This document shows, in pieces, positions 37,633 through 53,579 of a stretch of 64,000 bases of DNA. This DNA comes from Gemmatimonadota bacterium. GTDB lineage: Bacteria > Gemmatimonadota > Gemmatimonadetes > Gemmatimonadales > Gemmatimonadaceae. The stretch is taken from contig JAJTGR010000040.1 of the NCBI GenBank assembly GCA_021299375.1, forward strand, positions 1 through 64,000, given 5' to 3'. Both the position numbers and the translations under genes were made by a program. Under the pieces are notes generated by a model that searched no databases, had not been told where the DNA came from, and saw nothing but the letters and a program-made list of their open reading frames with translations. Within the stretch, counting starts at the first letter, position 1, and each line of letters starts with the position of its first letter.

Positions 37633-39927
37633 CTACAGCAACGACACGGGGTCGCGGTCCACCACCAGACGCAGCTCGGCGTCGCGGGGCACGGGGCACC
37701 GCTCGGCAACATAGCGGGCCACCCGGGTCATCAGCTTCGGTTGCGACGACTTGAGCAGGAAGTGCCAGCGCCAGCGGTCCTTGATGCGATCGATCGGGCA
37801 CGGGGCCGGGCCAACCAGCACGAGATCGCGCAGTCCCTGACGCGTCATCAACTCCCCCAACCACTCGGCCGCGCCCATGCAGGCAGCGGCCGTGGCGACC
37901 TGGTCGACCCCACTGACCAGCACATTCGCCAGCGACACGAACGGCGGATAGGCCGGCAGGCGTCGCGCGCCCAATTCCTCGCGCACGAAACCGAGAAAGT
38001 CATGCGACAGTGCATGGCGCACCGCGTGGGCCTCGGGCATACGCGTCTGGACGATCACTTCGCCGCCCTTGGCGCCGCGCCCGGCACGTCCCGCCACCTG
38101 GCTGAGCAACTGGAAGGTGCGCTCGGACGCGCGGAAGTCGGGCAGGTTGAGGCCCGTGTCGGCGTCGACGACGCCCACCAGGGTGACGTTCGGAAAATCC
38201 AGTCCCTTGGCGATCATCTGCGTCCCCAGCAGAATGTCCACCTCGCCGCGGCCCACGCGATCGAGGATCTGCGTGTGCGCCCATTTTCCGCTCGTCGTGT
38301 CCACATCCATGCGCGCGATGCGCGCGTCGGGAAAGCGCTCCGCCACCAGCCGCTCCACCTGCTGCGTGCCAAGGCCCCGCTTTCTTGGCGATTCGGCACC
38401 GCAGCGCCCGCACACCGCGGGCACCTCCACCTGGTGCTGGCAATAGTGACAGACCAGCGCCTCGGGCACGCGATGATACGTGAGCGAGATGCTGCAGTGC
38501 GGACACACGGGGACATCGCCGCAGGCTTGGCACTGGATGAACGCGGCATAACCGCGGCGGTTGAGAAGCAGCAGCGTCTGCTCACCCAGCGTCAACCGTG
38601 ATTCCACCGCGGCGAGCAGGGTGGGGCTGAATACCCCGACCGCGGGATCATGGGGGGCATGCGGCGCGCGATGCGCGAGGTGCTGCTGGCTCACGGCGCG
38701 CATGTCCACCACCGTCACCGGTGGCAGTTGGGCCCCGGCGGCGCGGTCGGGCAGCGTGAGGCGTACCGCCTGCCCCCGGTCGGCCCGCTCCCAGCTCTCG
38801 AGGCTCGGGGTGGCGCTGCCGAGCACCACCAGGGCCCCCTCGGCGCGGGCGCGCACGATCGCCGCTTCACGCGCATGGTAGCGCGGTGTCTCGGACTGCT
38901 TGTAGCTCCCCTCGTGCTCCTCGTCGACGATCACCACGCCGACCCGCTCCAGCGGCGCGAAGAGCGCCGAACGCGCACCGACGGCAATGCGGCGTTCGCC
39001 GCGTCGCAGGGCATGCCACGCGTCGAGCCGTTCGCCGTCGCTGAGCCCCGAGTGCAGCACCGCCACGTCGTCGCCGAATGCTCCACGGAAGCGGTCGACC
39101 GTTTGCGACGTGAGGGCAATCTCGGGCACCAGCACGATGGCGGTTCGCCCCGGCTCGGCAAGCACCGCGCGCAGCACTTCGATGTACACGAGGGTCTTGC
39201 CACTGCCGGTGATGCCGTGCAGCAGGAACACCTGCCCCGGATCACCGGCGAGAATGGAGGCGATGGCCTCGCGCTGCGCCACCGACGGATGGGGCGGTGG
39301 GGCCACGCCGGCGCGCTCGGCGAACGGATCACGGGCCCGCGCCTCGTTGCGCACCTCCACGAGGCCGCGCTTGACCATGGCCGTGATCACGCCGGCTGAG
39401 CAGTTGGCCTGCACACGCAGCGCCTCGAGCGGCGCCATGCCCCCTTGTGCCTCGAGCAGATCGTACACGGCGCGCTGCTGCTTCGCACGGGCGAAGGTCT
39501 GCTCGCGCTGCAGCAGCGACGGCAACTCCTGCATGAGGTGCACGACACGCTGTGTCTTTGCCGCCGGCGACGGCGTGTTGGGCTGCGTGAGCGCCGTGGG
39601 CAACATGGCGCGCAGCGTCAGGCCCAGCGGTGCCGCATACCAGTCGGCAATCCAGCGCGCGGTGTGCACCAGCGGCGCCGGAAGCGACGGCACGTCATCG
39701 ACCACGGCGCGCACCGGCTTGAGGGACACGCCGGCCGGCGGCTCGGCCGCCCCGAGGCAGACGCCGATCTCGGTGCGATTGCGGAACGGCACCAGCACCC
39801 GGGCCCCGACGGCCACCGGCCATGCGACGCCATCGGGCACGCGGTAGCTGAACGTCCGGAACAGCGGCACCGCCAGCGCCACCTCGATGCAGCGCCCGGC
39901 GCTCACGCCGCCCGCTCCGCCGGACAC
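37633..39927 (-). CDS. priA: Primosomal protein N' (replication restart helicase)
   Basis: LLHGITGSGKTLVYIEVLR, VDEEHEGSYKQ, zinc-binding CQACGDVPVCPHCSISLTYH..LVCHYCQHQ..VCGRCGAES. Confidence 0.97.
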   Translation of the reverse strand: MSGGAGGVSAGRCIEVALAVPLFRTFSYRVPDGVAWPVAVGARVLVPFRNRTEIGVCLGAAEPPAGVSLKPVRAVVDDVPSLPAPLVHTARWIADWYAAPLGLTLRAMLPTALTQPNTPSPAAKTQRVVHLMQELPSLLQREQTFARAKQQRAVYDLLEAQGGMAPLEALRVQANCSAGVITAMVKRGLVEVRNEARARDPFAERAGVAPPPHPSVAQREAIASILAGDPGQVFLLHGITGSGKTLVYIEVLRAVLAEPGRTAIVLVPEIALTSQTVDRFRGAFGDDVAVLHSGLSDGERLDAWHALRRGERRIAVGARSALFAPLERVGVVIVDEEHEGSYKQSETPRYHAREAAIVRARAEGALVVLGSATPSLESWERADRGQAVRLTLPDRAAGAQLPPVTVVDMRAVSQQHLAHRAPHAPHDPAVGVFSPTLLAAVESRLTLGEQTLLLLNRRGYAAFIQCQACGDVPVCPHCSISLTYHRVPEALVCHYCQHQVEVPAVCGRCGAESPRKRGLGTQQVERLVAERFPDARIARMDVDTTSGKWAHTQILDRVGRGEVDILLGTQMIAKGLDFPNVTLVGVVDADTGLNLPDFRASERTFQLLSQVAGRAGRGAKGGEVIVQTRMPEAHAVRHALSHDFLGFVREELGARRLPAYPPFVSLANVLVSGVDQVATAAACMGAAEWLGELMTRQGLRDLVLVGPAPCPIDRIKDRWRWHFLLKSSQPKLMTRVARYVAERCPVPRDAELRLVVDRDPVSLL

Positions 39928-43172: not shown

Positions 43173-44101
43173 GCGAGCGCCGCGAGGTGCACCATCACCG
43201 CCTTCGCCACCGCCGCCGGCGCATAGCCACCTTCGAGCGCACTCACCACGCGCCCGTCGCACCACCGGTCGGCGCGCTCGACCATGGCCCGCGTGAGGGT
43301 CTGGACGTCGTCGAGGGTGAGCGTGAACGCGCCCAGTGGGTCACCCTCGAGGCAGTCGAACCCGGCGCTGATGAGTACAAGATCCGGCGTGAAACCATCG
43401 GTGGCGGCATCGACGCCCTGCAGGAGGGCGTCGACATAGCGCGTGGCCGGCAACGACGGCGGCATGGGCACGTTCCACACCGTGCCGAACGGGCCGCGGT
43501 CGTCGGCAGCCCCCGTTCCCGGATACCACGGCCACTGATGCATGGACACGAAATGGATGCGCGGCTCGTACTCCACCAGTGCCTGCGTGCCGTTGCCGTG
43601 GTGCACGTCCCAGTCCACGATCAGCACACGCTCACACCCGTGCCGGGTGAGCGCATAGTGCGCGGCGATGGCCACGTTGCCGAAGCAGCAGAAGCCCATG
43701 GCGCGATCGCGCAGCGCGTGATGCCCCGGGGGGCGCACGGCGGCGAAGCTGCGGCGCGCGCGCCCATCGAAGGCCATGTCGACGCCGTCGAGCACACAAC
43801 CGGCGCCTGCCGTGACCGCATCCCACGAGCCTGCGCTCACCACCGTGTCAGGATCGAGGCGCCCGCCGCCGGCCGCGACCGTATCACGCACGCGGGCGAT
43901 GTAGGCGCGGTCGTGCGCGAGCGCGAGCTCGTCTTCCGTGGCGTGCCGCCCCTCCACGTGCTGCAGCGCCGCGAACAGGTCGGGCTCGTGCTTGAGCGCC
44001 CGGGGAATGGCCACGAGGCGGCCGACATGCTCGGGGTGCTCCCAACCGGTGTCGTGACGACCACAGTCGGAGTGTGAAATGAGCGCGACGGGCTGGGTCA
44101 T
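43169..44101 (-). CDS. Histone deacetylase/acetoin utilisation (AcuC-like) family protein
   Basis: RPPGHHALRDRAMGFCCFGNVAIAAHYAL, VLIVDWDVHHGNGTQ, LISAGFDCLEGDPLG. Confidence 0.95.
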   Translation of the reverse strand: MTQPVALISHSDCGRHDTGWEHPEHVGRLVAIPRALKHEPDLFAALQHVEGRHATEDELALAHDRAYIARVRDTVAAGGGRLDPDTVVSAGSWDAVTAGAGCVLDGVDMAFDGRARRSFAAVRPPGHHALRDRAMGFCCFGNVAIAAHYALTRHGCERVLIVDWDVHHGNGTQALVEYEPRIHFVSMHQWPWYPGTGAADDRGPFGTVWNVPMPPSLPATRYVDALLQGVDAATDGFTPDLVLISAGFDCLEGDPLGAFTLTLDDVQTLTRAMVERADRWCDGRVVSALEGGYAPAAVAKAVMVHLAALA

Positions 44102-44135: not shown

Positions 44136-45593
44136 TCATCGCAGACCGCGCAGGCGGCGCGAGCTCCACTCCGCGAGCAAGGCCAGCGCCGCTGCTACGA
44201 AGAGTAGCGCCGGCGACGGACCGCGGGGAACACGCGACGTGGGCGCGGTCGGAGGCGAAGCCTCGGCCTCTGCGGGCGACGGCGCACCGAGCACCGCTAC
44301 GAGATCGGCATAGGGCGCGGCGTCGCCGGGCCCGGCAGTGGCCTCCGCAGCGGGCGCGGCGCGCGCAGGTCGCGCCGCATCCGGCGCCACCGCGCCAACG
44401 ACGTCGCCCCACCAGGCCCGGTGATCGGCCGCGCCGTCATCGGTGCCCTGCATGCGCCAACGCCACGTGTCCCGGTACGCCACGGCCACCACGCGCCCGG
44501 CACCGATTCGACCCACCACCACCGAGGGCTCGGCGTGCGTGACCTCGCCGGTGACCTCGCCGGTGTCGGCCAGCAGCACGGTACGTCCCGGCATCACCGC
44601 AAATTCCCACGCCTCCAGCCCCCGGCGTGGCGACGCGGTGAGCAGCGCACCGGCCACGCCACCCCGCAGGGCCGTCGCCCGAACGGGGCGCAGCCCCGCC
44701 AACGACGGCACCCGGACCGCGTCGCCGGCCAGCACGAGCCCTCCGCCGGCGGTCACGAAGCGCGACAACGCCGCCGCGTCGACCGCCATGCTGTCGAGGA
44801 CGAGGACCGCGGCATAACGCGCCGTATCGGGGCGCTGCGGCACCCCCAGTTGCACCGCGCCCGTGGGGGACACGCGCAGCGTGCCGTCCACCCGCCAGCC
44901 GGTCTCCTCGAGTGCCGCCACGGCGAACTTGCTCTCCCAGCCTGGCTGCGCCATGACCAGCAGCCGCTTCGGTGCGAGCGTGTCCGGCAGCGTCACCGTG
45001 GCCCGGCCGCCGCCCACGCGGGCTTCGAGCGGCGAGGCAATCGATGCGATGCGCCAGGTGGCGTCCACTCGGCCGGCCGTCACGCCCGCCGGCGCGGCCG
45101 CGGGCAGCGAATCCAGGAGCCCGCCGCCATCGCGCAACACCAGGGGCTGGGTGGCTGGTCCAGCGCTCGCCCGCACCACGTAGCCGCCGCGCGGCCCCCC
45201 CGCCGGCGCAATGGCGAGCGCCAACCCGCGACTCCCCGTGGAGTCCACCCACCGGACGGGCACACCCGCCAAGGGCAGCACCGACAAGGCCCCACGCACG
45301 GTCGCCCGTGGCACGTGCGACAGCGAGAGCGCGAGTGTGTCCTCCCCGCCGCGAGCCGCCCGCGCGACCACGGCCGCGCGCAGTGGCGCCACGACCGACC
45401 GAAGGCGGTCGTCGGTGTGGTCGGCGGCCTCCACACGAACAGACGTGACCCGCACACGCCCGGCATCGGTCGCAGCGTCGTGCCGGTCACGCACGGCCTG
45501 CCACGCCGCCAAGGCCAGTGCACCAAGTGCAAGTGCGCGGCCGGCACGCTCCAGTGCGCGGCGTCCACCATCGGGGGGCGTCAAGGTCGTCAT
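44136..45593 (-). CDS. Membrane protein, terminal member of the MoxR/DUF58 operon
   Basis: Start overlaps the stop region of the DUF4159 gene; TM-like N- and C-termini; glutamine-amidotransferase-like core (VLVLDSMAVDAAALSRFVTAGGGLVLAGD). Confidence 0.65.
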   Translation of the reverse strand: MTTLTPPDGGRRALERAGRALALGALALAAWQAVRDRHDAATDAGRVRVTSVRVEAADHTDDRLRSVVAPLRAAVVARAARGGEDTLALSLSHVPRATVRGALSVLPLAGVPVRWVDSTGSRGLALAIAPAGGPRGGYVVRASAGPATQPLVLRDGGGLLDSLPAAAPAGVTAGRVDATWRIASIASPLEARVGGGRATVTLPDTLAPKRLLVMAQPGWESKFAVAALEETGWRVDGTLRVSPTGAVQLGVPQRPDTARYAAVLVLDSMAVDAAALSRFVTAGGGLVLAGDAVRVPSLAGLRPVRATALRGGVAGALLTASPRRGLEAWEFAVMPGRTVLLADTGEVTGEVTHAEPSVVVGRIGAGRVVAVAYRDTWRWRMQGTDDGAADHRAWWGDVVGAVAPDAARPARAAPAAEATAGPGDAAPYADLVAVLGAPSPAEAEASPPTAPTSRVPRGPSPALLFVAAALALLAEWSSRRLRGLR

Positions 45594-46237
45594 CGGGTCA
45601 GCGCGTACACCACGAGGTTGACCGCGAACTTCGTGTTGTCCACCGAGAGGAAGCGCTTGTTGTCGGGGTGGAAGCTCCACTCCGAGCTGTAGTCCTTGTT
45701 GGAGTAGAGCACACTGATGCGGCCGCCCTGCAGCACCGCATCGAGCTGTTCATGCACGAGGTTGTCCCCCCAGCCGTTCATCTCATGCGAGGTGGTCGGC
45801 GGGCCGTTCTCGAACACGAAGAAGCAGCGATAGAGTTCGTGGCTGTTGGGCAGCGGCTGCAGCGGCCCCACGAGCCGGCGGATCTCTTCGCGGACCGTCT
45901 TGTGAAAGGCGCCGTCGACGTCGTGGTTGTGATCGTCGATGAACAGCAGCCCGCCACGGCCAAGATAGCGCTGCAGCACGGCGCTCTCGCGCACCGTGAA
46001 GCGCACCGGCAGGTGGCCGGTGAGATAGAGCAGCGGGTACTGGAACGCCGCTTCCGACGACAGGGGCACGATCACTCCCTGCGGGCGTACCGGCAGCGAC
46101 GTGTAGCGCGCCACCGAGTCGATGACGTTCGCCGGCACGAGCGGCGCCGAGTCCCAGTCGCCGGAGTCGTACTGGGCAGTGGCGAACACGAACGGGGCCA
46201 CGGCGGATGCGCTCACGGTGGCACACCGCGCGACCAC
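45590..46237 (-). CDS. DUF4159-like protein
   Basis: FVFATAQYDSGDWDSAP; YLTGHLPVRFTVRESAVLQRYLGRGGLLFIDD; NGWGDNLVHEQLDAVL. Confidence 0.85.
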   Translation of the reverse strand: MVARCATVSASAVAPFVFATAQYDSGDWDSAPLVPANVIDSVARYTSLPVRPQGVIVPLSSEAAFQYPLLYLTGHLPVRFTVRESAVLQRYLGRGGLLFIDDHNHDVDGAFHKTVREEIRRLVGPLQPLPNSHELYRCFFVFENGPPTTSHEMNGWGDNLVHEQLDAVLQGGRISVLYSNKDYSSEWSFHPDNKRFLSVDNTKFAVNLVVYALTR

Positions 46238-48333
46238 CCCGCCCCCGGGGTCCGCACCACGTTGCCCAACACGCGTCGGGCACCAACGAACGCCGCCGTC
46301 ACGTCACCGCCACGCTCCACCACGTCCAGTACGCGCGCAACGGCTCCCGCGAAGGCCGGTGCATCGGCGAGCGCTTCCACGCGCAGCAGCGCCAACGAGT
46401 CACGCGCAGCGTCGCGCGCCGCGGGCAGCAGTTGCGCCGCCCGCACCAGGCGCACATCGCGCTGCACCAGGCGCGTGGGCAGCGCCGCACGCCCACTGCG
46501 CCCACTCGTCCGGCCGGTGTCCTTCCCCACCAGCCGGACCTTGGCGAGGTCGACGATCACCTGTGGCGGCTTCCCACGCAGGTAGAGGCGCGAGGCGGCA
46601 CGCGACCGCTCGATGGCCTCGAGCGCCCGCTTCATGGGTGGAATGGCACCGTGCGGATCGCCCTGCTCAAGCGCACGCCCCGCGTCCCACATGGCGTTGT
46701 AGGCCTCGAGCAGGGGCTGATTGATGGCGATGACGGGTGAATCATTGCCTTCCGCCAGCATGCCGGTCGTGCTGGCCGGATTGATGACCAGCTTGCCTCC
46801 CTGCTGGTCGACACCGTGCTCATGGCCGTCCCCCGCGAAGTGGGCATGCTCCGCGCTTGACTCACCGCTGAGCCGCTGGAACACCACATCGCCCACCGCC
46901 AGCCGCAGCCGCGCCTGGTCGCGCGCCAGCGTGAGCGACTCCCGCAGCACCTCGGCACGCGCCAGCCGCGGTTGCTGCCTGTCGAGCTTCTCGGTGAGCA
47001 TCAGCAGCATGCGCTGACTGAGCAGCGACTTGTCCACGTCGGGCGGCGGCGCCGGCTCCACGGCAACCGAGTCGTACTCGGCAGGGCGTGCGATCCGGAA
47101 CGCCCGCGTCTCGCTGGCTCCGAACTCACGGGTGGCGGCCGGGTGCCCGTCACGCGCAATCGCACGCAGGTGCACCACGTCACCGGGCAGCAACTGCAGC
47201 GCCGAGAGGTCGAGGGTGCCGCGAATGGTGGCGCGGCGCTGCCCGCCCGAGGCACGCCAGTCGGCGGCACCCAGCGCGACCGAGCGCACGGTGAAGCGCT
47301 CTCCCTCGCCCGAGCTTACCAGCAGGTCGAAACGCGCCGACGCCAGGCCGATATCGTCCGTTGCCGACGCCACCAGCGGGAGCCGCCCCGTCGCCTCGCG
47401 AAAGACACTGTCGCGCGCCGGCTGCTCGAGCGTGACCATCGGCACACTGTCGGCATGTCCTTCGATGACCAGCAGCCGGGTGCGCCCACCGCGCGAGACC
47501 CGTATGGTGGCCGGCGCGTCAGGGGCGACCACGCGCACACGCCAGTCGCGACCGACGGCGCTGGCAGGCACCGGCAGGGACGCCGTCGTGCCAACCACCG
47601 TGAGCCGTGCCTCGGGCAGAGCGCCTTCACCGGTGAGTTCGATCACACTCCCGCTCACCGCCACGACGACAGTGGCATCACCGCGGTCGACGGCCGCCTG
47701 GCCGGTGTAGGCCGGCGGCTTCACGCGCAGGCGCCAGGCCCCGAGCGGCGCAACGACGCTCTCGCGGGGCACACGGGCCCCAGCTACGCCGGCCGCCGCG
47801 CGATCACCGCCGGCCGACACGCGCGCTGCGCGCGGCACGACGAGCAGCAGCGCCGACCCCATCACGAACAGCGCCGGCCCGAGCCACGCCTCACGACGCA
47901 GGCGGACGAGCCCCTCGGCCACCGCGGCCTGCGCCCACACCACCTCGGCCGCACGCGTGAGCGCGGCCGGAGCCGGGGCGACCTGCTCCATGTACGTCAC
48001 CAGGGAGAAGTCGGGCGGCGTGGCCCGCTGCTCCTCGATCCAGAGCGCGACCTGCACGGCATCGAGCGCCCGGCGGCGGCGCGCCAGCACCACCCACGCC
48101 ACCCCCGCCGCCAGAAGACCCAGCACCACGGGCCACGTCCGCAGCTCACCCGTCACCCCCCCGAACGCGCGCACCACGCGCGCCAGCAGCACCACCAGCA
48201 GCCCCGCGCCGAGCGACACGAGCAGCGTCCGTGCGCGCTGCACCGTGGCGATGGCGCGCCGTGTGCGTTCCACGGCATCGCCGACCACGCGTGGCGACGC
48301 GGTGTCGGCGCGCGACATCGTCGGCGCGGTCAT
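46213..48333 (-). CDS. DUF4175-like large membrane protein
   Basis: TM pair, ASATDDIGLASARFDLLVSSGEGERF, LARAEVLRESLTLARDQARLRLAVGD; operon position. Confidence 0.75.
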   Translation of the reverse strand: MTAPTMSRADTASPRVVGDAVERTRRAIATVQRARTLLVSLGAGLLVVLLARVVRAFGGVTGELRTWPVVLGLLAAGVAWVVLARRRRALDAVQVALWIEEQRATPPDFSLVTYMEQVAPAPAALTRAAEVVWAQAAVAEGLVRLRREAWLGPALFVMGSALLLVVPRAARVSAGGDRAAAGVAGARVPRESVVAPLGAWRLRVKPPAYTGQAAVDRGDATVVVAVSGSVIELTGEGALPEARLTVVGTTASLPVPASAVGRDWRVRVVAPDAPATIRVSRGGRTRLLVIEGHADSVPMVTLEQPARDSVFREATGRLPLVASATDDIGLASARFDLLVSSGEGERFTVRSVALGAADWRASGGQRRATIRGTLDLSALQLLPGDVVHLRAIARDGHPAATREFGASETRAFRIARPAEYDSVAVEPAPPPDVDKSLLSQRMLLMLTEKLDRQQPRLARAEVLRESLTLARDQARLRLAVGDVVFQRLSGESSAEHAHFAGDGHEHGVDQQGGKLVINPASTTGMLAEGNDSPVIAINQPLLEAYNAMWDAGRALEQGDPHGAIPPMKRALEAIERSRAASRLYLRGKPPQVIVDLAKVRLVGKDTGRTSGRSGRAALPTRLVQRDVRLVRAAQLLPAARDAARDSLALLRVEALADAPAFAGAVARVLDVVERGGDVTAAFVGARRVLGNVVRTPGAGWSRGVPP

Positions 48334-49601
48334 GACGCGGCCTCGTGCCGGCGCAGCACCCACTCGACCAGCAGCGCGGTGGCCGCCACGCCGAGCAGCA
48401 CAGGACCGAGCCACCACGGCTCGGTGCCGGCCGACTGCCGCGCGCCCCCACGAAACGCCGAGGCGGGCGCGAGGTCGCGTACCGATGGCGCGGTATCGTC
48501 GCGTGCCAGCCGGGCGGTGCGAACCGTCACGCCACCGCAGGGTGCCGTGAGCGCACGGCGCAAGCCTGCTGCCGGTGCGGAGAGCAGCAGGTCGCTCCGC
48601 TCCGGGACGGCGATCGCCACCTCACGCACACAGCCGTCCTTATCGGGCCGCTCGACGACGGCCACTTCGCCATCACTCCACCACGCCACCGGCTGCACGA
48701 GCGAGTCCGTGTCCCACCCGGCAGGCAGTCGTGCGGTCCGTTCCCAAGGGCCCACGAGCACCTGTCCCATGGCCACGACGGCGCCTGCCGTGTCTGCGGG
48801 CATGCGGACGGCCCATCCGTCGGGGCGCCCCGACCGCGGCCAGTGCAGCACCACGGTGGCCGCAGTGACCGGCGCGACCGATACGGTATCCCGGAGGTCA
48901 CCACGCTCGACGCGGACGGCATAGGCGCCGGCCGTACCGCTCGCCGTGCGCCGCGCACCGGAGAACGCGGCCGCGACCACGTCGTCGCGGCGTCCATCGG
49001 TCTGCACAAACACCGCGGGCGCTGGCCACGTCTCGCGCACCGTGTGCAGCGTGTCGCTGAACTGCACGCGTACGCGGCCCGGCCATTGAGCACGCCAGGC
49101 GTCCCACCCCTGCAGCGACCGCACCGACGGCGGCAACACCACCATGAGATCGAACCGTTCGATGCCCGGTTCGCGCTGCACCCGCACGGCCGCGGCTTGG
49201 GTCGCCGCCACGAGCGCCACGCCGGGATCGTCACGCAGGTGATCCTGCCACACGAGGTCCACGCGATCGGCGCCGTCTGGCGCCAGCCATCGCGACGAGT
49301 CGCGCTGCCACTGGCGCTCGGCCACCACAAGACGCACCGTGGCGACGCGGGTGGGCGTCCAGCGCACACCTGAGAGCGCCAGACCCGCGCACAGCAGCGC
49401 GGTCACGCGCAGGGCCAGCAGCAGCAGGTCGTTGGGGCGCGGCTGCCGCGCCACCGAGCGCGCCTCGCCGTCAGGCACGAAACGGGCCGTGGGAAGCAGC
49501 AACGGCGGTGGCCGGCGCACCGACAGCAGGTGCAGGGCCCCCACCAGTGCCGTAGCGAGGGCCGCCGCCCCCAGCACCCATGGCGTGGCGATCGACAGCA
49601 T
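48330..49601 (-). CDS. BatA/aerotolerance-regulator N-terminal domain membrane protein
   Basis: ATPWVLGAAALATALVGALHLLSVRRPPPLLLPTARFVP N-terminus. Confidence 0.85.
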   Translation of the reverse strand: MLSIATPWVLGAAALATALVGALHLLSVRRPPPLLLPTARFVPDGEARSVARQPRPNDLLLLALRVTALLCAGLALSGVRWTPTRVATVRLVVAERQWQRDSSRWLAPDGADRVDLVWQDHLRDDPGVALVAATQAAAVRVQREPGIERFDLMVVLPPSVRSLQGWDAWRAQWPGRVRVQFSDTLHTVRETWPAPAVFVQTDGRRDDVVAAAFSGARRTASGTAGAYAVRVERGDLRDTVSVAPVTAATVVLHWPRSGRPDGWAVRMPADTAGAVVAMGQVLVGPWERTARLPAGWDTDSLVQPVAWWSDGEVAVVERPDKDGCVREVAIAVPERSDLLLSAPAAGLRRALTAPCGGVTVRTARLARDDTAPSVRDLAPASAFRGGARQSAGTEPWWLGPVLLGVAATALLVEWVLRRHEAAS

Positions 49602-49604
49602 GCG

Positions 49605-50498
49605 CTACCGCGCCTCGACGGTCGCGGGCACGCTGATGCCCATGACCACGGCACGCACGGCGCGCACCGGATCGACCGATGTGACCACCTCGGTGTACCC
49701 GGCACCGATGGCCCGCCACCGCTGCGCCACGTCACGCCGGAAGGCAGCGAACGCGTCCCGATACGCGGTGCGCCCACGCACGTCCAGCACCCGCTCCAGC
49801 GCGGCCTGCTCGGGGTCACGCGCGAGGTGCACGTCCGCTGGCGGTTCGAGTTCTTCGCGCGCCACCACATGGATGAACTCGACCAGCGCCCCGGCCACCG
49901 CATGCGCCGACGCCACCTTGCGCAGTGCCTCGAGATCGCCGAGTGCATCGCTCACGATGACCATGCGGGCTGCCGTTGGCAGCTGGGCCACGAGCGGCGC
50001 CAGCGCCACCGCACCGCCGCACGGCGTGGCGTCGAGTACGCGCGCGAGTTCCTGCACCGTGCCGCGCCGCGTGCGCGGCGGCACCCGGGTGGCGCCGCCG
50101 CCGTGGGCCACGAGCAGACCCACCGGGTCGCTCGAGGCATGCGCCACCGCCGCCAATCCCACGGTCAGCCGGCGCGCCAGACGCCACTTGCTCAACTCGC
50201 CCTCCCGCTCGTCCGGGAACGCCATGCTGGCGCTGGCGTCCACCACGAACCACGTGGCGAGCTGCGCCCGGTCGTCGCTCAGCCGTACGAAGGCGCGGTC
50301 ACTGCGCGCGAGCAGCTTCCAGTCGAGTGTCCGCGGATCGTCGCCCTGGCGATACAGGCGGTACTCGGTGAACTCGCCGGCCGTGCCGCGTTGCGTGGAG
50401 CGGTGCGTGCCGGCTGGCCCCGCCGCCACAGCGCGGCGCGCGGGCCAGCGCACGCCGCGCAGCGCGTCGAGCAGCGGCCCGTACACCGAGGCCGGCAT
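49605..50498 (-). CDS. DUF58 domain protein (VWA-like)
   Basis: GTAGEFTEYRLYRQGDDPRTLDWKLLARSDRAFVRLSDDRAQLATWFVVDASASM. Confidence 0.95.
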   Translation of the reverse strand: MPASVYGPLLDALRGVRWPARRAVAAGPAGTHRSTQRGTAGEFTEYRLYRQGDDPRTLDWKLLARSDRAFVRLSDDRAQLATWFVVDASASMAFPDEREGELSKWRLARRLTVGLAAVAHASSDPVGLLVAHGGGATRVPPRTRRGTVQELARVLDATPCGGAVALAPLVAQLPTAARMVIVSDALGDLEALRKVASAHAVAGALVEFIHVVAREELEPPADVHLARDPEQAALERVLDVRGRTAYRDAFAAFRRDVAQRWRAIGAGYTEVVTSVDPVRAVRAVVMGISVPATVEAR

Positions 50499-50544
50499 GT
50501 TCACGTCGTGCGCACCCGCCGCCTGACCGCGGACATGGTCCGCG

Positions 50545-51541
50545 TCAGGTGGGCAGCGCGCTGGCCGGTGCCGCCACGCCGGCCAGCAGCGCGTCGATGA
50601 GCGGCTCCGGCGACACGCCATCCGCTTCGGCGGCAAAGTTGGGAAGGATGCGGTGGCGCAGCACCGGCATCGCCACCCGCCGGATGTCAGCCGGCGAAAC
50701 CGCCGCGCGCCCCGCCAGCAGCGCCGAGGCCTTGGCGCCCAGAATGAGCGCCTGCCCGGCGCGCGGTCCGGCGCCCCAGCGGACGTATTGCTTCACCAGC
50801 GCCGGTGCGGTGCTCTCTTGCGGGCGCGAGGCACGCACCAGGCGCGCCGCGTACTGGAGCAGCAGGTCGCTGCACGGCAGCGCCCGCACCGCACGCTGCA
50901 GCGCCAGCGCCTCGTCGGCGGTGAACACCGGTTCGATCGCCGCACCCTTCGCGCCCGTCGTCGCACGCAGGATCCCGACTTCGTCGGCTTCGGTGGGATA
51001 CCCCACGCGAATGTCGAAGAGAAACCGGTCGAGCTGCGCCTCGGGCAACGGGTAGGTGCCTTCCTGTTCGATCGGGTTCTGCGTCGCCAGCACGAAGAAC
51101 GGCTCCGGCAGGCGCATGGTCTGCCCCGCTGCCGTTACGCTGTGCTCCTGCATGGCCTCCAGCAGCGCGGCCTGGGTGCGTGGCGGCGCGCGATTGATCT
51201 CGTCGGCGAGTACGATGTTGGCGAACACGGGACCACGCACGAAGCGAAACGCCCGCGCACCGCCTCCGCTCTCCTCGAGAATCTCCGTGCCGGTGATGTC
51301 GCTCGGCACCAGGTCCGGCGTGAACTGGATGCGCCGGAACTCGAGCTGCATGGCATCGGCCAGCGAGCGGATCATGAGCGTCTTGGCGAGCCCGGGCACC
51401 CCCACCAGCAACGCGTGGCCGCCGGCCACGAGCGCCATGAGGATCTCGTCGACCACCGCGTCCTGCCCCACCACGCGCTTGCCGATCTCGGCCCGCAGCC
51501 GGTGCACCGACGCGATGAGCTGTTCGGGGGAGGCGTTCACG
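50545..51541 (-). CDS. MoxR-family AAA+ ATPase
   Basis: VVGQDAVVDEILMALVAGGHALLVGVPGLAKTLMI, FTPDLVPSDITGTEI, FANIVLADEINRAPPRTQAALLEAMQE. Confidence 0.97.
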
Positions 51542-51547
51542 CCGCGC

Positions 51548-51889
51548 TCACTTGAGGGGCCGGCGGCGACGCGACGTGAGGAACAACGTCGATGCGTCAC
51601 GCGCGCCGACCTGGCGCAGCGTGAGGCCCTCGTCACGCACCTCGGCGCCATGCAACTTCACCAGGTACGCCTCGGGCTGGGCGATGTCCGGCAGCAGGTT
51701 CGCCATGGCGGCCTGCTTCACGGCACCCACCGTCGTGTCGGGCGTACACTCCACACGCACCGCGTCCCACGCCTCGGCGGCCTGTACGCGCAGCGTCCAG
51801 GGCATATCCGTGTCAGGCGGCGCAAGCCGCAGCACTTCAGGGCGCACCCGCAGCGCATTCACGAAAGACCCCGCCGGCATGCCGCTCAT
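51548..51889 (-). CDS. Small ubiquitin-like (beta-grasp, YukD/EsaB-like) protein
   Basis: VRVECTPDTTVGAVKQAAMANLLPDIAQPEAYLVKLHGAEVRDEGLTLRQVGARDASTLFL. Confidence 0.65.
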   Translation of the reverse strand: MSGMPAGSFVNALRVRPEVLRLAPPDTDMPWTLRVQAAEAWDAVRVECTPDTTVGAVKQAAMANLLPDIAQPEAYLVKLHGAEVRDEGLTLRQVGARDASTLFLTSRRRRPLK

Positions 51890-52233
51890 GAGGCGGACTC
51901 CACCGGCCTGTCCTCTGCGGCGGAGGACGGTGCGCCACCGACCGGCGGTGCCGGCGGCAGGGACGTGAGGAAGCGTGCGATCTGCTGGTCGAACAGGTAG
52001 CTCGAGCCGCTGACCGCCGTGCCCTCAGGTGTCACCCGGGCGGCGATGGCGATCTCCTCGCCCCCCTGCCCGCGCAACACCACGTGCGTCGGTCCCTGCT
52101 TCTCGACAAAGGCGGTGTACACGCCACCCTGCTGCGCGAAGTACCGCGCCGCCGCCGCCAGCACCTCGGCGACGGACAACGCGGTCAGTCGTTCCTGCAG
52201 CTGGCGCGACGACTGCTGATGCATACCCTGCAT
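51886..52233 (-). CDS. Hypothetical protein translationally coupled to the ubiquitin-like gene
   Basis: Stop/start overlap with 51889; RYFAQQGGVYTAFVEKQGPTHVVLRGQGGEEIAIAARVTPEGTAVSGSSYLFDQQIARFL. Confidence 0.6.
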   Translation of the reverse strand: MQGMHQQSSRQLQERLTALSVAEVLAAAARYFAQQGGVYTAFVEKQGPTHVVLRGQGGEEIAIAARVTPEGTAVSGSSYLFDQQIARFLTSLPPAPPVGGAPSSAAEDRPVESAS

Positions 52234-52277: not shown

Positions 52278-53579
52278 TCAGTCGCGATCGATGTCCACCG
52301 GAAAGACAAGCCGGACTTCCTGCTCGGCATCACGGTCCGCTGGCGCCACATCGACCCGGAAATCACCTCCAAGCCGAGTGGTCAGGGCGCGCGCGAGCAG
52401 TGGGTCGATGGCAGTGACGGCCCGACGGGCCGCTGCAAACGAGTCGGTGGCGTCCCAGTGGAGCGCCTCGGCCCGTACGCGAAGTATACGCAGCGCGTCG
52501 GGCGGAAGTTGGTGCCATGCCACGGCGTCCTCGGGCGGGACCACCTCGAGGACGGGGCGTCCGCGCCACCGCACCGTGAGGGCCAGGAAGCCCCGCTCCA
52601 CCCGCACCCCGGCCCGCACCACGCCACCCTCGAGGGCGGCGCCGCAGACGCCGAGGCCCAGCACCAGTTCGAGGGCACGGGTGAGCCGAGCCTCGTCGAC
52701 CCGCATGGTCGGGAGCAGCACGGTCGGCTCGTCCACCTGGATCGGCACCATGGGGGCGCGCGCGCGCCACCGGGCTACCGCCGCCTGCAGCGGCCCGCGC
52801 GGGTCGACGTCGCATGCCACCACCGCAAAGCCGGGCGCCGTCACCTCGGTGAACTCGCGCGCTGCCGCCGCCAGCGTCCCGACCGCCTCGAGACGTTCCC
52901 CCACCGCCCGTGCGTCCGTGGCGGCCGTCAGCGCCTGCAGCGCCTCCACCACGAGCTCCTCCGACGCCGCGCGCACCCGTTCCGCCGCGCTCCACGCAGC
53001 CGCCTGCGCCTCGAGCTCAGCATTGGCTTCAGCCAGAGCCCCGTTGGCCCGTCGCAACGCATCCGTCTGCCGCGCTTTGTCGGTGGCCGCCGCCAGCTGG
53101 TCAGCCACCAGCCGCACCAGCGCGCGCTGCTCATCGCTCACGCGGGTGGCGCCGGTGAAGTAGAACGCCACCGCCCCGATCGGCCCGGCGGCCGTCTCCA
53201 GCGGGGCGGCGATCATCGACTGGAAGCCCAGTTCGGTGGCGACCTCGTGCCACACAGCCAGCGAGGGGTCGGCGAACACGTCACCAACCTCCACCACTCG
53301 CCGCTCGGCGACGGCCAAGCCGCTCGGACCGTCGCCGACCCGCACCCGCAGCGCGCCAATCCACGGCCGGTGAGGCGCCGGCCATTCATACTGGGCCACG
53401 GGGCGCAACCACTCGCCGTCCGCCCCGAGCTCCATGACCAGCGAAAATGCCGCCCCGATCAGCGGCGTGACCCGGTCGAGTGCGAACTGCTGCACATCCC
53501 GCGGATGTGCGGCCAGCAGGAAGGCATGGGCAATCTCGCGGATCGCCAGGAGTTCGCGGGCGTCGGCAGCGGACACGTG
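52278..53579 (-). CDS. GAF-domain sensor protein
   Basis: VRVGDGPSGLAVAERRVVEVGDVFADPSLAVWHEVATELGFQSMIAAPLETAAGPIGAVAFYF; coiled-coil; degenerate kinase-like C-terminus. Confidence 0.8.
   Translation of the reverse strand, partial: HVSAADARELLAIREIAHAFLLAAHPRDVQQFALDRVTPLIGAAFSLVMELGADGEWLRPVAQYEWPAPHRPWIGALRVRVGDGPSGLAVAERRVVEVGDVFADPSLAVWHEVATELGFQSMIAAPLETAAGPIGAVAFYFTGATRVSDEQRALVRLVADQLAAATDKARQTDALRRANGALAEANAELEAQAAAWSAAERVRAASEELVVEALQALTAATDARAVGERLEAVGTLAAAAREFTEVTAPGFAVVACDVDPRGPLQAAVARWRARAPMVPIQVDEPTVLLPTMRVDEARLTRALELVLGLGVCGAALEGGVVRAGVRVERGFLALTVRWRGRPVLEVVPPEDAVAWHQLPPDALRILRVRAEALHWDATDSFAAARRAVTAIDPLLARALTTRLGGDFRVDVAPADRDAEQEVRLVFPVDIDRD

Follow-up and report, generated by a model that had tools for sequence, protein, structure and literature searches.

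Several small ubiquitin-fold proteins that act outside conjugation have been described in bacteria. YukD is a precedent of a ubiquitin-like protein (Ubl) that cannot be conjugated (PMC5845737). A survey of the beta-grasp fold has proposed that TmoB, RnfH, and YukD have a role in stabilisation or assembly (PMC1949818). The described systems that are closest to the locus reported here are the YukD/EsaB family (PF08817), which consists of small ubiquitin-fold proteins without a conjugation tail, the DUF2604 family (PF10790), the BilA-type Ubls with their E1, E2, and JAB operon, the beta-grasp protein MoaD of the moaDEA operon, and the MoxR-VWA (Bat/DUF58) clusters. In this work, we have identified a pair of genes in Gemmatimonadota that encode a ubiquitin-fold protein (UBL) and a second small protein (PARTNER). 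The literature search that was performed found nothing on this pair.

The pair is located in a window (the whole stretch of DNA that was analysed) of 64,000 nucleotides from a Gemmatimonadota bacterium (GenBank assembly GCA_021299375.1, contig JAJTGR010000040.1). The features of the locus are listed below in the direction of transcription.

52278 to 53480, minus strand: GAF-domain sensor protein, upstream of PARTNER; the open reading frame is possibly longer at its upstream end.
51886 to 52233, minus strand: PARTNER, 115 aa, predicted half-START/SRPBCC-like protein (b-a-b-b-b-b-a) with an invariant RGQG-E loop.
51886 to 51889, minus strand: ATGA overlap of 4 nt between the PARTNER stop and the UBL start, translational coupling.
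51548 to 51889, minus strand: UBL, 113 aa, predicted ubiquitin-fold protein with the basic C-terminus TSRRRRPLK and without Gly-Gly.
50545 to 51543, minus strand: MoxR AAA+ ATPase (AAA_3, E 4.6e-63), context outside the conserved unit.
49605 to 50549, minus strand: DUF58 protein (E 4.6e-29), context.
48330 to 49601, minus strand: BatA-like protein (E 1.7e-5, just under its cut-off), context.
46213 to 48336, minus strand: DUF4175-like protein (E 1.5e-6, just under its cut-off), context.
45590 to 46237, minus strand: DUF4159 protein (E 3.7e-51), context.
44145 to 45326, minus strand: protein of homology group c29 that closes the cluster, context.
43217 to 44089, minus strand: histone-deacetylase-like (HDAC) protein, name read by eye from the sequence.
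37639 to 39894, minus strand: PriA-like helicase, a conserved gene of the downstream block that is probably older; name given by eye.

The sequence-only reading had described two small genes of about 113 and 115 aa that are coupled by a stop/start overlap at the head of a MoxR/DUF58 cluster. This description holds for the window genome, where PARTNER is read from 52233 to 51886 and UBL from 51889 to 51548, and where 4 nt separate the UBL stop from the MoxR gene, which is followed on the same strand by the DUF58, BatA-like, DUF4175-like, and DUF4159 genes. The true start of PARTNER may be 9 nt downstream of the annotated one; many congeners begin with MHQQS. The names of the neighbours (HDAC, epimerase, PriA) come from inspection of the sequence by eye, without Pfam confirmation. 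The codes f1 to f9 denote families, with f1 being the window's own family, which is taken as Gemmatimonadaceae. The GAF-domain gene is a frequent upstream neighbour of PARTNER, chiefly in Gemmatimonadaceae. The C-terminal part of the GAF-domain protein of the window seems degenerate, and relatives such as L028 have what appears to be a full histidine kinase at this position.

The AlphaFold (AF2) model of UBL, which was built from the alignment of 45 UBLs, has a pLDDT of 91.4 and a pTM of 0.81. The Foldseek matches of the model in the PDB are ISG15, ubiquitin, archaeal ubiquitin, and the bacterial BilA Ubl. The target-normalised TM is about 0.8 against ubiquitin, ISG15, and BilA (0.82 for BilA). 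The UBL profile also matches ubiquitin-fold chains in the PDB, where the strongest values come from polyubiquitin chains with several domain copies and the single domains match more weakly (E 1.3e-5 for 5zmb, about 1e-3 to 0.1 for the others). The predicted structure and the profile matches both agree with the beta-grasp (ubiquitin/YukD-like) fold that had been guessed earlier, and UBL is, as modelled, a ubiquitin-fold (beta-grasp) protein.

The matches of UBL to known families are weak. DUF2604 is the Pfam model that is matched by most UBLs (18/45, best E 8.5e-6). The YukD model is matched weakly by 17/45 UBLs (best E 2e-4), the EccD model weakly by three (best E 6.7e-4), and other Ubl models of Pfam also match members, all weakly. 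Neither UBL nor PARTNER of the window reaches a Pfam or NCBIfam cut-off. These YukD and EccD matches would suit a UBL that belongs to a type VII secretion system as its YukD/EsaB-type component. However, the YukD search of the window genome found nothing at E <= 0.1, and no type VII secretion gene was recognised beside the pair, where the neighbours are the MoxR cluster, HDAC, PriA, glycyl-tRNA synthetase (GlyRS), and others. The type VII secretion role was dropped on these grounds and is considered extremely improbable. UBL also differs from YukD/EsaB by its START-like partner and its basic tail.

The C-terminal consensus of the UBLs from the window's order is xxRRRRPVR, and none of the 45 ends in Gly-Gly. 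The UBLs of f7 and f9 have no RRRRPVR-type tail; their C-terminus is strictly conserved as YDxxHxxxFxG with a single, invariant last Gly (L078-L086, L105-L110). Among the conserved neighbours of the pair, no homologue of E1, E2, or JAB was recognised, and the window genome has one ThiF/E1 match and one JAB match, both on other contigs. UBL resembles BilA in its predicted fold, but it has no Gly-Gly end and no Bil-type operon was seen at the pair loci. The PADLOC BilA model has no match in the window UBL and matches 1/45 members at E 0.0093. The sequence-only reading had suggested a search for a C-terminal processing motif and E1- or JAB-like genes, and the order UBLs have no Gly-Gly while no E1- or JAB-like gene was recognised beside the pair. 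Conjugation was dropped because of the missing Gly-Gly and because no linked machinery was seen. The broader explanation, where UBL is a covalent modifier or a sulfur carrier and PARTNER is its accessory factor, could draw on the likeness to BilA, ISG15, and ubiquitin, on the invariant Gly in f7 and f9, and on the PARTNER relatives that adjoin the true sulfur carrier MoaD (described below), but the RRRRPVR/PLK-type tails and the unlinked E1-like and JAB matches make it very improbable.

The predicted structure of PARTNER consists of b-a-b-b-b-b-a with a pLDDT of 87. Most of its top Foldseek matches are small proteins of the SRPBCC/START/AHSA1 superfamily (best E 2.4e-3, TM about 0.4-0.54). PARTNER has fewer strands than the full SRPBCC helix-grip fold, and no Pfam family was found at threshold. 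The model is read, with reserve, as a truncated START/SRPBCC-like fold.

UBL was detected in 55/61 relatives and, among the good genomes, in 42/43 over 21/22 genera. The pair is present as one copy per genome. PARTNER is immediately upstream of UBL in 55/55 order-level loci, and the 4-nt overlap is found in 44 of the 53 order-level loci with readable start codons. The class scan showed PARTNER in 94 of the 95 order genomes that contain UBL (a combined count from two scans), with the exception of G136, where UBL is present and PARTNER was undetected. The families f7 and f9, which belong to the same class, have a diverged UBL directly after a diverged PARTNER with a spacing of -4 to +44 nt. The comparison of the UBL profiles of the order and of f7/f9 gives E 8.5e-20. 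All matches so far are in Gemmatimonadota, which the record titles of related loci name; a pattern scan with the f7/f9 UBL beyond the phylum returned 33 loci that belong to Gemmatimonadota or to unnamed MAGs. The tblastn searches found no match of PARTNER in plasmids and no match of UBL in phages.

PARTNER and UBL are separable, as PARTNER occurs without UBL and, once, UBL without a detected PARTNER, which speaks against an obligate pair. In the genus g29 (L087, L088), UBL is missing and an HDAC-like gene lies directly after a PARTNER that keeps the RGQGGEE loop; this locus is a natural deletion of UBL. Standalone PARTNER copies without UBL are found in L101-L103 and L164-L168. The copies in L101-L103 (f4/f5) are PARTNER-like genes beside DsbA-like and, in two of them, helicase-like genes, and no beta-grasp neighbour was recognised there. 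The copies in L164-L168 are of the f7/f9 type, are carried by f2/f3 genomes, and have the C-terminus RGAY; their neighbours, judged by eye, are inositol-phosphate synthase-, copper-type ATPase-, or pyruvate dehydrogenase E1-like genes.

The conserved unit consists of PARTNER and UBL, without MoxR. The sequence-only reading had proposed that the pair is an adaptor for the MoxR-VWA chaperone-like machine. MoxR is the gene directly after UBL in almost every congener and in 3/7 other sampled genera of Gemmatimonadaceae, and in L027, from a fourth genus of the family, the MoxR cluster is just upstream of the pair. However, no MoxR cluster was found beside the pair in the loci of f2, f3, f7, and f9, nor in the congener L024. 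The neighbourhood survey thus showed that the linkage is not conserved in relatives outside Gemmatimonadaceae. MoxR is a lineage-specific neighbour whose adjacency is limited to part of Gemmatimonadaceae.

The gene order in L024 and in f2/f3, which are the other families of the window's order, is PARTNER-UBL-HDAC-...-PriA. The gene after UBL is usually HDAC-like, often followed by a dipeptide-epimerase-like gene and PriA, and glycyl-tRNA synthetase is located upstream. The window exhibits the same order of HDAC, epimerase, PriA, and GlyRS, with the MoxR-to-DUF4159 cluster separating UBL from HDAC, its usual neighbour. The order without the cluster is likely to be the older one. Later insertion of the MoxR cluster in the window lineage is the simplest reading of these gene orders, the alternative being its loss in the other lineages. 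The DUF4159 loci of f2/f3 that were inspected have no match to the window-type MoxR. Congener genomes have two to seven DUF4159 genes, only one of which is beside the pair in Gemmatimonas-like genomes, and the window genome (G000) has four (C87, C106, C40, C41). These numbers suggest that MoxR-type or DUF4159 clusters occur several times in a genome. On the gene orders described, it is quite improbable that the pair serves the MoxR-DUF58 (VWA) machine encoded downstream as an adaptor or a regulator. This function was dropped as a general role since the pair persists without a MoxR neighbour; a lineage-specific function with MoxR may exist.

Homologues of PARTNER were also found beside MoaD. 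In the MoaD-type loci examined, which come from three other families of the class (f6, f7, and f9), a PARTNER homologue is directly upstream of MoaD in 18/18 cases. MoaE and then often MoaA are located downstream, and an HU gene is usually located upstream (L071-L077, L091-L100, L104). The MoaD-linked PARTNER is possibly an undescribed accessory protein of molybdopterin synthesis. Both the PARTNER-MoaD and the PARTNER-UBL pair are present in several f7 and f9 genomes. The moaD loci that were inspected in the window's order lack an upstream PARTNER, and the UBL-paired PARTNER is the sole one in this order except for the standalone copies of the f7/f9 type that some f2/f3 genomes carry. The MoaD protein has a PPVxGG end and its gene lies before that of MoaE, whereas UBL has no Gly-Gly, and the comparison of the UBL and MoaD profiles was not significant. 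UBL as a recent paralogue of MoaD was dropped on account of this comparison.

The PARTNER profile of the order matches the MoaD-type profile at E 8.7e-26 and the profile of the f7/f9 UBL-partners at E 5.1e-12. In the trees, the standalone copies of f2/f3 group with the f7/f9 UBL-partners (95/97). The tree favours the grouping of the order PARTNER with the MoaD-type ones, and a single clade of all UBL partners has an AU p of 0.20, with long branches meeting. These results fit a swap in which PARTNER changed between MoaD and UBL, but the swap is a suggestion, since a single clade of the UBL partners is not rejected; for this reason and because of the long branches, it was dropped as a proven event. 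Taking the two kinds of pair together, it is tentatively proposed, as a possibility held well below even chance, that PARTNER may be the founder of a family of beta-grasp-binding proteins, in Gemmatimonadota so far, whose clients would be MoaD and a free-standing Ubl, and that the Ubl took over a MoaD-type partner in the window's order.

The reading that we moderately favour is that PARTNER and UBL form a two-gene cassette for an obligate pair, which would consist of a non-conjugated Ubl and a beta-grasp-binding, truncated-START-like partner. PARTNER would be made just before UBL from the same message, and a 1:1 complex would form co-translationally. The PARTNER family would recognise the beta-grasp fold, probably including the C-terminal tail. 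Tail recognition is proposed because each kind of pairing has a tail of its own: RRRRPVR is found with the partner that has the RGQGGEE loop, YDxxHxPFxG with the f7/f9 partner, and PPVAGG of MoaD with the MoaD-type partner. A binding mode shared by UBL and MoaD is a guess from adjacency, since the two are not detectably related by sequence. The UBL of the order is basic and its PARTNER near neutral, and UBL and PARTNER of f7/f9 are both acidic; charge complementarity as a general pairing rule was dropped accordingly.

START/SRPBCC-type folds often bind hydrophobic ligands. PARTNER could thus be a small-ligand sensor or an enzyme subunit while UBL works elsewhere, with the overlap balancing the dosage of the two proteins within one pathway without direct binding. 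The several lineages that have PARTNER without UBL agree with such simple co-expression. However, the order of the two genes and their 4-nt overlap are retained where the flanks differ, and binding explains more readily why PARTNER recurs beside beta-grasp proteins (UBL and MoaD), which renders co-expression alone unlikely. Under the obligate-pair reading, the PARTNER-UBL complex would act as an adaptor or a stabilising module, as has been proposed for YukD/EsaB and TmoB. The pair is nearly universal in the order and has no constant gene downstream, which suggests that it serves the cell in general and not a single adjacent machine.

Most of the bacterial ubiquitin-fold proteins that are free-standing and non-conjugated are functional orphans. 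UBL has a constant, translationally coupled PARTNER, so that a candidate binding partner is named in advance, and the pair is near-universal within the main order of a poorly studied phylum of soil bacteria. The association of PARTNER with MoaD suggests a kind of protein whose task is to handle beta-grasp carriers, a matter of interest for how cells keep, protect, or redirect their Ubls and sulfur carriers. If the beta-grasp-binding family is true, it would provide a natural link between the sulfur-carrier and the ubiquitin-like sides of beta-grasp biology.
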